A model generated the notes under the pieces. The model did no database searches, had not been told where the DNA came from, and saw only the letters and a list, made by a program, of their open reading frames with translations. DNA of 35,335 nt. It comes from an uncultured Sphingomonas sp. (lineage in GTDB: Bacteria; Pseudomonadota; Alphaproteobacteria; Sphingomonadales; Sphingomonadaceae). A program made the position numbers and the translations under genes. The stretch spans positions 1 through 35,335 of the forward strand of contig CAJYJW010000231.1 of assembly GCA_913775025.1 (NCBI GenBank). The letters are read 5' to 3'. Positions 9,804 to 12,567 of this stretch are shown in pieces. How positions within the stretch are numbered: position 1 is the first letter of the stretch; each line of letters opens with the position of its first letter.

Positions 9804-10121
9804 TCAGCCTTCGCCAAGCAGCAGGGTGCCACCCTTGCGCGCGATCACGTCCCGTATCCTGTCCGCGAACAGGCCCAGCATCGGTGGCAGGATCAGCGCC
9901 ACGCGAATGTGATCGTCTGTGACATCAGCGGTGGCCGAGACGGTTTGGCCCAAGGCTTTCACCTCGATCGCCATGCGATCTTCCGACGGCCAATGCGCCG
10001 CCACCTCGGCGACGCCGCCGGGGATATGGGCAGGCAATTCGCCGATGCGCGCCTTCATTCGCCGCCGCGCCTCGGCCCGGCCCAGCGTGTGGGGAATGTC
10101 GATGATCGTGGGATTTGCCAT
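9804..10121 (-). CDS. Polyhydroxyalkanoic-acid-system family protein
   Basis: A 105-residue soluble protein starting M-A-N-P-T-I-I-D-I-P-H-T-L-G-R-A-E-A-R-R-R-M, with the later pattern G-Q-x-V-x-A-x-x-D-V and a hydrophobic L-P-P-M-L-G-L-F-A-D-R-I segment. This matches the small proteins named after PHA granule regions (PHA_gran_rgn). Family members are often near PHA synthesis or phasin genes, but their biochemical role is unclear. No PHA synthase is in the window. The observation gains weight because an apparent PhaR-box-controlled sRNA lies 1.6 kb away. It is probably transcribed with the 2H phosphoesterase gene 48 bp upstream. Confidence 0.78.
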   Translation of the reverse strand: MANPTIIDIPHTLGRAEARRRMKARIGELPAHIPGGVAEVAAHWPSEDRMAIEVKALGQTVSATADVTDDHIRVALILPPMLGLFADRIRDVIARKGGTLLLGEG

Positions 10122-10169: not shown

Positions 10170-10703
10170 TCAGCCCAAGAACATATAGCGATGGATCAAT
10201 TCCCACGGCCCGCCCCGATAATGATAGCTGGCCAGCCCCGTGATCGCGAGCGGGCGTGGCATGAAGCCGGCCGACAGCGCGGCGAGCAGCGCCTTTGCTT
10301 CGGCCGGGGCGACCTTGTTCTGGATCGTGACATGGGGCCGCCAGCCACCGCTGTCCTGCGGTGTGAGGCAGCCGGCGAAGGCCGCCGCCAGATCGGCGCG
10401 GATCGCCATCAACGCCTCGCTGCGTATGCCGACAGCTAAGCCGCGTCCCAGGGAAAACAGGCGATCGACTATCGCGGGCGGGCGCGGAACATGCGCCGTC
10501 GCCCGCCGCAGTCGCCCGTCCAGTTCCCCCGCCAGGCTGGGCGGCAGATGGTGAAAGAGCGTGAGATGCGCAGCGAGCACGTTCCGCTTCGGCGGGAAAT
10601 GCGCGCGGCGAAGGCCATCCAGCCACGTGAAGTCCGCCTTGCCAAACAGCGCGGAGACGATGATCGGCGCGCCCCCGGCATCCTTAGGCGGCGCCATAGG
10701 CAT
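10170..10703 (-). CDS. 2H phosphoesterase (2'-5' RNA ligase / cyclic phosphodiesterase-like)
   Basis: The protein has 177 residues and the two H-x-T-hydrophobic motifs that define the 2H superfamily: H-L-T-L-F at residues 46-50 and H-V-T-I-Q at 124-128. Such enzymes hydrolyse 2',3'-cyclic phosphates or 2'-5' linkages of RNA or nucleotides. The C-terminal tyrosine-rich strand (Y-H-Y-R-G-G-P-W-E) is typical of the LigT-like or YjcG-like branch. The length is normal and both motifs are intact. Its ATG lies inside the last 20 bp of the histone-deacetylase-like gene, so the two are translationally coupled. Physiological substrate unknown. Confidence 0.83.
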   Translation of the reverse strand: MPMAPPKDAGGAPIIVSALFGKADFTWLDGLRRAHFPPKRNVLAAHLTLFHHLPPSLAGELDGRLRRATAHVPRPPAIVDRLFSLGRGLAVGIRSEALMAIRADLAAAFAGCLTPQDSGGWRPHVTIQNKVAPAEAKALLAALSAGFMPRPLAITGLASYHYRGGPWELIHRYMFLG

Positions 10704-11598
10704 CTCCGAATGTCAGGATCGAACGGACGTGGCGCGCCGCCACCTCCTGGATGTCATGGCCGTAACCGCCGCCCAGCGTGCCGGCTACCGGAATAGCGCG
10801 CGCCTTGGCTACACGGGCGACAAAGCGGTCTCGCGCATCCAATCCCTCCTGCGTCAGGGAAAGCCGGCCCAGCCGATCCCCGCCGAATGGATCGACCCCG
10901 CCCTGCCACAGGATCAGATCGGGTCGAAAACTATCAAGCAGCGGCGGCAAGGTCGCTTCGAGTGCCGCCAGATAGGCGGTATCGTCGGCCCGGTCGGGCA
11001 AAGGCACGTCGCGCGTCGAATTTGCCTTGCGAGCCGGGAAATTACTCTCGCAATGGATCGAATAAGTAGCGATGGCAGGGTTCGCGGAGGTGAGAAGGGC
11101 GGTGCCGTCGCCCTGATGGACATCGCAATCCACGACCATCACACGATCCACCAACCGCTCCGCGATCAGCCGATTTGCTGCAATTGCGAGATCGTTGAAT
11201 ATGCAATATCCGGCACCGCTGTCATAGCGCGCGTGATGGCTGCCGCCAGCGCTATTGAAGGCAAACCCCTCCGTGCGGGCGAGTAGTGCCGCCGTCCATG
11301 TGCCACCTGCGACCAGGAAGGATCGGGCAGCGATTCGCTCATCGATCGCGAAGCCGATCCGCCGGACCTTGTCGGCCGGCACGCGGGCCTCAAGGACCTC
11401 GGCGACATAGGCGGGATCATGAACGGCGTTGAGCCATTCAAGGGGCATCGCATCGGGGACCGCCCAGTCCAACCGTCTGCCCGAATTGCGGAGACCGTCG
11501 CGAACAAGCGCGGTCTTGCTCCAGCGGTAGCGGCTGGTCGGGTCGGGCGGTACGACGTAATCGGGATGATGGACGATCGGAATAGTCATGGCCTGCAT
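10684..11598 (-). CDS. Histone-deacetylase-family (acetoin-utilisation-like) amidohydrolase
   Basis: A 304-residue zinc hydrolase of the class II HDAC/HdaH superfamily. Visible active-site elements are the twin histidines in G-G-S-H-H-A (H121, H122), the Y-C-I-F-N-D-L-A motif (131-137), the zinc ligands in V-D-C-D-V-H-Q-G-D-G-T (D159, H161), and the third ligand region G-G-V-D-P-F-G-G-D. The conserved C-terminal G-G-G-Y is present as L-G-G-G-Y. Bacterial members deacetylate acetylpolyamines, acetylated proteins or other amides, so the substrate here cannot be assigned. The start is the ATG at 11598; a second ATG nine bases downstream is equally possible. It heads an apparent operon with the 2H phosphoesterase and the PHA-system protein. 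A strong terminator for a separate upstream minus-strand transcript lies 160 bases before it. Confidence 0.88.
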   Translation of the reverse strand: MQAMTIPIVHHPDYVVPPDPTSRYRWSKTALVRDGLRNSGRRLDWAVPDAMPLEWLNAVHDPAYVAEVLEARVPADKVRRIGFAIDERIAARSFLVAGGTWTAALLARTEGFAFNSAGGSHHARYDSGAGYCIFNDLAIAANRLIAERLVDRVMVVDCDVHQGDGTALLTSANPAIATYSIHCESNFPARKANSTRDVPLPDRADDTAYLAALEATLPPLLDSFRPDLILWQGGVDPFGGDRLGRLSLTQEGLDARDRFVARVAKARAIPVAGTLGGGYGHDIQEVAARHVRSILTFGDAYGAA

Positions 11599-11761
11599 AT
11601 CGGCAGCCTGATGATGCGATCAAGAGAGGTTGGGGGAGAGCGCCTGCGGCCGCTCGATCCCCCGGGTGCCACTGACGAACCGATGCCGGTTTTCCGGCGG
11701 CTCCCCTCAGATTCTGTGTGCGAATCGTCGGCGGCAAAACCGCTATAGCGCCAGCGCGGCG

Positions 11762-11792
11762 AAAAAAAAGGCCGGTCCTTGCGAACCGGCCT
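11762..11792 (-). terminator. Strong intrinsic terminator on the minus strand
   Basis: Perfect 8-bp stem AGGCCGGT/ACCGGCCT with an 8-nt loop, followed on the minus strand by seven or eight T residues. No minus-strand protein gene ends here, since the nearest gene on the right (the glutathione transferase) is on the plus strand. It is therefore best explained as the 3' end of the candidate sRNA. Confidence 0.88.
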
Positions 11793-11822
11793 GAAAGTTT
11801 AGGAGAGGATGCCTGAAAGGCA
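11762..11822 (-). ncRNA. Candidate trans-acting small RNA, MmgR/alpha-r8-like
   Basis: On the minus strand three elements follow each other without any coding gene. First comes a 5-bp hairpin with a TTC loop (11822 to 11810). Then follows a 17-base region predicted unpaired, containing CCTCTCCT (11809 to 11793). Last is a perfect 8-bp stem with a T7-8 tail (11792 to 11762). This is the layout of the MmgR (alpha-r8) sRNA family of Rhizobiales, which has an unpaired pyrimidine-rich anti-Shine-Dalgarno core between two stems and limits phasin/PHB production. The start point near 11822 is inferred from a weak promoter-like pair (TTGCAA at 11856-11851 and CACAAA at 11833-11828, spacer 17). Family membership is from memory of the architecture; the existence of some terminated transcript is better supported. 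Confidence 0.6.
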
Positions 11823-11827
11823 CGTGC

Positions 11828-11840
11828 TTTGTGCATCGCA
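11828..11840 (-). promoter_or_regulatory. Candidate PhaR (AniA) binding box over the sRNA promoter
   Basis: The minus strand reads TGCGATGCACAAA. It matches at every position the alphaproteobacterial PhaR consensus as I remember it (TGC-R-N-Y-GC-A-S-M-A). It overlaps the putative -10 (11833-11828) and lies just upstream of the inferred sRNA start, the position expected for repression. The same bases could also act on the divergent glutathione transferase gene 134 bp away. Confidence 0.55.
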
Positions 11841-11875
11841 GCAGGCAATGTTGCAAGTGCGAAAAGCAAAACCAC

Positions 11876-11894
11876 GATTGCAATAGATGCAATC
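11876..11894. repeat. Perfect 7-bp inverted repeat, possible operator
   Basis: GATTGCA and TGCAATC are separated by ATAGA. The centre is about 63 bases upstream of the inferred sRNA start and about 89 bases upstream of the glutathione transferase start. Either gene could be the target of a dimeric regulator. No known site was recognised. Confidence 0.45.
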
Positions 11895-11973
11895 TTATCG
11901 GTCCCGACGATGCGTTTGCAACCCCACGTTCAAGGGGACGTTGCGACTCTGCCCAGCCGAGAAAGGACGCATA

Positions 11974-12567
11974 ATGGAACTCTATTTCAGCCCTGGAGCC
12001 TGCAGCCTTGCCACCCACATCGCGCTGAATGCCGGCAACATCGCCCACGATCGCGTCAAAGTCGATTTGAAGGCCAAAACCACGGAGCAAGGCGAGGATT
12101 ACCGGACGATCAATCCCAAGGGGTATGTTCCCGCCCTGGAAATCGAGGACGGCGCGCTGCTGACCGAGAACATCGCCCTATTGAGCTATGTCGGATCGCT
12201 GGCCCCCGCTCTCTTCCCGCCTGACGGCATGGCGCATTGGCGTACTCTCGAGACGCTAGCCTTCATCTCGACCGAATTGCACAAGAGCTTCAAGCCGCTG
12301 TTCAATCCCGCTTCCAGCGAGGCGGAAAAGGACGAGGCGAAAAAGACTCTGCGCGGACGTTTCGATCTGATCGAGCCGATGCTGAACGGACGCCCCTTCC
12401 TGAACGGCGATGCGATCGGCGTTACCGACTGCTATCTGTTCGTCACGCTGTTCTGGGCGAAGGAGAAATTCGGCATGGAGTTGTCGCCGACGCTGGCCGG
12501 CTATTTCAGCAGAATGCGGGAACAGCCAGCCGTCGCGCAGGCTTTGAAGGAAGAGGGCATTGCCTGA
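11974..12567 (+). CDS. Glutathione S-transferase family protein
   Basis: A 197-residue cytosolic GST with a thioredoxin-fold N-terminal domain (residues 1-78) and a helical C-terminal domain. The opening M-E-L-Y-F-S-P-G-A-C-S-L-A-T-H matches bacterial beta-class GSTs (GstA), with the Cys at position 10 that forms mixed disulfides with glutathione in that class. N-P-K-G-Y-V-P-A-L-E carries the cis-proline, T-E-N-I-A-L-L is the glutathione gamma-glutamyl contact, and G-V-T-D-C-Y-L-F-V is the N-capping motif of the C-terminal core. The frame is open upstream to 11887, but the ATG at 11974 has GAAAGGA seven bases before it and yields the family N-terminus. It converges on lepA across a long hairpin. 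The substrate is unknown. Confidence 0.9.
   Translation: MELYFSPGACSLATHIALNAGNIAHDRVKVDLKAKTTEQGEDYRTINPKGYVPALEIEDGALLTENIALLSYVGSLAPALFPPDGMAHWRTLETLAFISTELHKSFKPLFNPASSEAEKDEAKKTLRGRFDLIEPMLNGRPFLNGDAIGVTDCYLFVTLFWAKEKFGMELSPTLAGYFSRMREQPAVAQALKEEGIA

Follow-up and report, generated by a model that had tools for sequence, protein, structure and literature searches.

A protein-free gap in the genome of an uncultured Sphingomonas sp. raises the question whether it encodes a small RNA of the MmgR type and whether the promoter of that RNA is controlled by PhaR. The window, i.e. the whole stretch of 35,335 nucleotides that was analyzed, belongs to a draft genome of 3.57 Mb in 346 contigs. The alpha-r8 RNA family, SuhB in Sphingopyxis and the binding of PhaR at mmgR of S. 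meliloti are already known. A report of PhaR acting at a sphingomonad suhB was not found in the openly licensed literature, a scope outside which the primary papers on SuhB, on mmgR and AniA and on mmgR phylogeny fall. The analysis described below makes it probable that the window locus is a suhB gene for a trans-acting sRNA, with a promoter directly targeted by PhaR, released by PHB and leading to silencing mediated by the core of the RNA.

The RNA gene and its surroundings

A search with the Rfam covariance model RF00519 (suhB, 'Makes More Granules Regulator RNA', covering MmgR and alpha-r8) matched the minus strand at 11755-11828 with 52.5 bits, above the gathering cut-off of 41, which bears out the MmgR-like sRNA of the original prediction. 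MmgR of S. meliloti belongs to the same Rfam family. For the ends of the RNA given in Table 1, the last T of the run was taken as the 3' end and the 5' end was placed so as to give 61 nt, the length reported for the sRNA SuhB of Sphingopyxis granuli TFA (PMC6563040). The locus has the layout of the family: a weak 5' hairpin, an unpaired anti-Shine-Dalgarno core and a Rho-independent terminator. The hairpin, the unpaired stretch and the terminator with its T tail (T8, ending at 11762) are all present on the minus strand as had been described, and a 111-nt stretch around the sRNA folds 2.42 s.d. better than its shuffles (z -2.42).

Core and stems are conserved in relatives. The core ATCCTCTCC is unchanged in all 34 aligned Sphingomonadaceae loci. 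The four consensus pairs of the 5' hairpin are kept in 34/34 loci and are almost invariant, so that the hairpin is conserved and gives no covariation signal. Changes on both sides that keep the pair were found in these 34 loci at 7 of the 12 consensus pairs overall, all seven within the terminator, where they make up 7 of 8 pairs; at a given terminator pair, pairing is broken in up to 7 of the 34 sequences. The core of the window locus reads AUCCUCUCC, whereas UUUCCUCCCU is given for Caulobacter (PMC12559287), and CCUCUCC stands here against CCUCCC in most loci of the class. The unpaired stretch TCCTCTCCTAAACTTTC is likely the seed that pairs with mRNAs. SisA-D of Caulobacter crescentus are reported to be alpha-r8 RNAs as well, with several copies per genome and an anti-Shine-Dalgarno core (PMC12559287). 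The Sphingomonas genome likewise has a second alpha-r8 copy (L002, G000:C17:1720-1795), which scores 34.1 bits, under the Rfam cut-off. Judged by family model, fold and conservation, the window locus is a gene for an sRNA of the MmgR/SuhB (alpha-r8) family with a predicted transcript.

Table 1 Features of the suhB locus and its neighbourhood (positions in the window)
Feature	Position	Strand	Basis
PHA_gran_rgn protein gene (PF09650), two genes downstream of the sRNA, same strand	9804-10121	-	Pfam, E 1.4e-10
Histone-deacetylase-family (HDAC-like) gene, downstream of the sRNA	10684-11598	-	PF00850, E 1.8e-54
Predicted 61-nt sRNA (SuhB/MmgR, alpha-r8)	11762-11822	-	RF00519 match and end of T run
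Intrinsic terminator, GC-rich stem-loop (11769-11792) and T8 tail ending at 11762	11762-11792	-	Fold
Unpaired core TCCTCTCCTAAACTTTC, anti-Shine-Dalgarno type	11793-11809	-	Single-stranded in fold
5' hairpin TGCCTTTCAGGCA	11810-11822	-	Single-sequence fold
Predicted PhaR box GCCTGCTGCGATGCACAAAGC, core TGCGATGCA at 11832-11840	11826-11846	-	Phasin-promoter matrix (11.8 bits) and position-specific excess in relatives
Predicted -10 CACAAA, overlapped by the PhaR box	11828-11833	-	Inferred from spacing to the -35-like hexamer and similar layout in relatives
TTCGCACTTGCAACA, near-invariant alpha-r8 promoter element, containing -35-like TTGCAA (11851-11856)	11849-11863	-	Pattern in family loci
Glutathione S-transferase (GST) gene, divergent, upstream of the sRNA	11974-12567	+	GST_N_2 and GST_C, on longer frame 11887-12567

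An N-formylglutamate amidohydrolase gene, reported as a usual but non-defining neighbour of alpha-r8 genes (PMC12559287), is not found at the window locus, which is flanked by the HDAC-like and GST genes. Within flanks of 1.5 kb, the window locus is the only one of 56 family loci with an HDAC or GST gene adjoining alpha-r8, and two genus mates share this arrangement; the HDAC gene adjoins alpha-r8 in genus mates G196 and G197. The claim that the RNA sits beside a PHA-system gene did not hold, as the PF09650 gene is separated from it by the HDAC-like gene and a 2'-5' RNA-ligase-like gene. The genome does carry the phaR (TIGR01848, E 1.3e-45, G000:C211:205-519) and phasin genes that the proposed regulation presupposes, with two phasin-family genes and phaC.

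A PhaR-like palindrome over the predicted -10

PhaR of S. meliloti is reported to recognize a palindrome with the core YGCRNYGCR (PMC12542648). Since circularity was to be avoided, the scoring matrix was built from phasin promoters, namely from 66 palindromes upstream of phasin domains in Sphingomonadaceae, some of them surely chance occurrences (scores down to -14.4). Many of the phasin-upstream palindromes in this family are paired, about 47 nt apart, and the phasin of the window genome is preceded by two, of 15.3 and 23.4 bits. The mmgR site of S. meliloti, left out of the matrix, scored 22.3 bits with this sphingomonad matrix.

At the window locus the 13-base PhaR-like sequence noticed earlier was confirmed at 11828-11840, and the full 21-base site scores 11.8 bits, a value reached by 8.3e-5 of background positions. 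Taken alone this score is modest, amounting to a chance of about 1 % per 156-nt window, and the case for the box is made by its conservation in relatives rather than by its own score. Phasin-type sites are present at both alpha-r8 copies of the genome, the site of the second copy (23.1 bits) being stronger than that of the window copy. The palindrome lies over the likely -10, as had been proposed, and recurs in relatives above chance; the -35-like hexamer is located 17 nt from the predicted -10. Whereas the mmgR site of S. meliloti is experimentally bound by PhaR (PMC12542648), the window box is predicted from sequence, and its centre is at about -14 from the predicted start compared to about -23 at mmgR (coordinates from PMC12542648 and PMC7143759).

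With a threshold of 10.3 bits and a search range of 156 nt upstream, sites were found at 28 of 56 Sphingomonadaceae alpha-r8 loci versus 6 of 912 control windows of the same loci, counts that, like all box counts within the family, are inflated by shared descent of the sequences. The other 28 loci have no site within 156 nt upstream; counted by genus, 13 of the 20 genera in this sample show at least one. The 56 loci represent 51 genomes, chosen approximately by descending score out of 196 genomes of the order, with weak copies under-represented; two phaR-less genomes from other families were taken in place of the hits of G150 and G160, and one locus (L134) failed one sequence pattern. In the genus mates, the four copies that possess the core all carry the palindrome at the position seen in the window, with 14.0, 16.3, 18.0 and 8.7 bits, the last being under the threshold of 10.3 bits, and a fifth, weak genus-mate match (L267, 36.2 bits) without the core was left out of box scoring. 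Two Sphingopyxis genomes, neither of them the record of strain TFA itself, resemble the window locus, each having one RF00519 match above cut-off with a 23.5-bit site at the same place over the -10. In G110, G470, G454 and G205, which have several alpha-r8 copies, one copy carries the box over the -10 and the others do not, as if paralogues split the control.

The palindrome might still be no PhaR operator in front of a genuine suhB gene, its right half (GCACA) being part of the -10 and its left half a product of chance or inheritance. The moderate score of the window site fits this explanation, as do the absence of the box from many family promoters and the frequent occurrence at the -10 of GCATAT or GCACAT unaccompanied by a left half. 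A second list of promoters, chosen solely by TTGC and the first stem of the RNA and overlapping the 56-locus sample in part of its genomes, bears on this point; it comprises 140 unique promoters among the 150 listed matches used, with 272 of 397 genomes matched. Of these 140 promoters 32, belonging to 10 of 36 genera and including 5/5 of the own genus, have the palindrome at the same exact distance, and 108 have no box at that exact position. The left half occurs at the palindromic spacing in 32 of the 46 promoters with a right half-site, at any of nine other spacings in at most 3 of the 46, and in only 3 of the 94 promoters without a right half-site, while 2000 spacer shuffles gave at most 1/140. 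Because the left half tracks the right half at exact spacing, the half-sites are coupled. This coupling, and the sites found at other distances as well as in further families of the class, speak against the non-operator explanation, which is regarded as quite improbable.

Matrices with a permuted core performed less clearly as a control within the family. They found up to 20/56 loci in 60 trials, and in 150 trials (mean 1.54, median 0) two matched 38 and 29 of the 56 loci compared to the 28 observed. The high-scoring permuted matrices apparently fit the near-invariant -35 element. Because this control fails in the family, the case there is based on the comparison with control windows and on the coupling of the half-sites, and the confidence in direct control by PhaR was slightly lowered. 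By the latter two tests, the predicted PhaR-like box of Sphingomonadaceae is lineage-variable yet not due to chance.

The survey of the order gave an RF00519 match in 178 and a PhaR match in 160 of 196 genomes. Since every Sphingomonadaceae genome in this sample has phaR (absentees having been worked out by exclusion), phaR and the box cannot be contrasted within the family. In the other families of the order none of 76 alpha-r8 loci, 13 of which are below the Rfam cut-off, has a site; the genomes concerned bear phaR for 39 of these loci and gave no PhaR match for the other 37. At least 120 loci with both box and RNA stem are present among the named genomes scanned, a set selected for the box and hence giving no frequency; the genera among the 80 titled matches listed include Sphingomonas, Sphingobium, Sphingopyxis, Croceicoccus, Novosphingobium, Erythrobacter, Stakelama and Rhizorhabdus.

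A class-wide sample gave sites at 48 of 69 loci (42 of 58 genomes) versus 12 of 548 control windows. RNA matches were obtained in 81 of 142 genomes; the scan covered 69 loci from 58 of these, taken approximately in order of score and leaving out six further copies, two Sphingomonadaceae genomes and L404. None of 150 core-permuted matrices reached the observed 48/69 (mean 1.03, best 11), and 60 earlier trials gave up to 10/69. The box centres are mostly 20-50 nt upstream of the model start. Because the boxes at 48/69 loci exceed the controls, PhaR control of alpha-r8 RNAs is read as common in the class; the data suggest that it is common in Alphaproteobacteria and was lost in part of the Sphingomonadales. 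As to the idea that the circuit extends beyond the Rhizobiales, such boxes are indeed present in Sphingomonadaceae and widely in the class sample, but the sphingomonad alpha-r8 RNA as such had already been published as SuhB (PMC6563040). A point against such control is that the Caulobacter study describes no conserved motif upstream of its four alpha-r8 genes (PMC12559287). Tandem boxes 19-22 nt apart were seen at 10 of the 69 class loci at a laxer threshold of 5 bits (e.g. L335, L340, L342, L348, L353 and L375), a spacing of about two helical turns.

A second element around the -35

The pattern TTYGCA-N-[TG]TGCR, chosen after the sequences had been seen, is present at 53 of 56 family loci and in none of 1234 control windows. 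Outside the family the TTYGCANTTGCR element was found at 4 of 69 class loci (L356, L361, L366 and L391), all four without a PhaR box, and at none of the 76 loci in the other families of the order. The element was considered as a PhaR site and rejected, its half-sites being wrongly spaced; part of it may be the -35 itself. A related pattern gave, in three genomes of the genus, 9 matches, 4 of them at alpha-r8 loci, compared to 1 for the reversed control. One such match (L315, G196:C1:2970354-2970368) precedes, at a distance of about 60 nt, an ORF resembling, by eye, propionyl-CoA carboxylase beta, which we take to be a possible lead to a regulator responding to short-chain acyl-CoA.

These data raise the possibility that suhB is controlled mainly via the TTYGCANTTGCR element, by an as yet unnamed regulator or through sigma-factor preference, with PhaR modulating some lineages. 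Besides the near-invariance of the element in the family, its confinement to box-less loci in the class sample and its absence from the other families, the genus-mate match in front of the carboxylase-like ORF would agree with this. The element may however simply be the -35, and its pattern was defined post hoc. Such control is compatible with direct targeting by PhaR, and as the main mode of regulation it is considered possible, if rather doubtful.

Proposed regulation, targets and significance

Direct control by PhaR would operate as follows. In cells without stored PHB, free PhaR would occupy the box over the -10 and block transcription of suhB, occlusion being suggested by the position of the PhaR-like site over the predicted -10. 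Once PHB granules form, they would sequester PhaR and the sRNA would be made. Its exposed CCUCUCC core would then pair with the ribosome-binding sites of mRNAs for carbon metabolism and lower their translation. For the window locus we infer PhaR binding, repression, the sign of the response, the class of targets and the epistasis. In S. meliloti, His6-PhaR was reported to bind the mmgR promoter, depletion of PhaR raised MmgR, and, as PHB accumulates, PhaR becomes bound to the granules (PMC12542648); stored PHB should therefore release suhB. This sign agrees with that given for S. granuli TFA, in which suhB is said to be transcribed more readily when PHB granules are present, SuhB together with Hfq lowering ThnR translation (PMC6563040).

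The original prediction was narrower in regard to targets, viewing the RNA as an MmgR that mainly represses phasins from within a PHA locus. MmgR of S. meliloti is reported to lower PhaP1 and PhaP2 post-transcriptionally, directly or indirectly (PMC8401924), and the PF09650 gene is only about 1.6 kb away. Target prediction, however, lends no support to a phasin effect at the window locus: the start region of the own phasin pairs with the sRNA at an unremarkable -9.1 kcal/mol, in the upper middle of the ranking, and the phasin mRNA does not stand out as the evident target. The start region of phaC pairs best of the 25 usable ones (-15.1), a rank that is uncertain since any strong Shine-Dalgarno sequence would score and the phaC start codon is itself uncertain. 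The start regions were picked from the ORF list, with the GST start off by one and one row (phaP(C94), cut at an ATG inside phaC) excluded, which reduced 26 regions to 25. To see whether phaC might be targeted in relatives too, 17 loci were scanned, 12 of which gave a phaC match, with uncertain start codons. With two genes also lying between the sRNA and the PHA gene, a mainly phasin-repressing RNA is thought unlikely. Direct targeting by PhaR, with silencing of carbon metabolism, is the preferred explanation.

On a wider scale, PhaR and alpha-r8 may form an ancient, class-wide circuit that converts PHB status into post-transcriptional catabolite repression. It would have been lost in much of the order, and in Sphingomonadaceae the operator would have moved onto the -10 and joined with an unrecognised regulator of the TTYGCANTTGCR element. 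This broader scenario is put forward tentatively, doubt slightly outweighing belief.

The findings are of value because they offer a mechanism, open to direct test, for a gap noted in the literature, and because of the pattern across the class. In a review on S. granuli, catabolite repression is described without any transcriptional regulator having been found, PHB favouring suhB and, through suhB, repression (PMC6563040); the review makes no mention of the word PhaR. For this gap, the putative PhaR operator over the suhB -10 offers a specific protein acting at a specific site, which a simple genetic experiment could check, and the strong boxes over the -10 in Sphingopyxis are a candidate route by which PHB may favour suhB transcription. 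The class sample suggests that Alphaproteobacteria in general include an sRNA arm in their PHB-sensing regulon; documentation of such an arm was found only for S. meliloti. With such boxes recurring in many relatives, the suggestion that gene silencing is linked to carbon storage can be put to the test.
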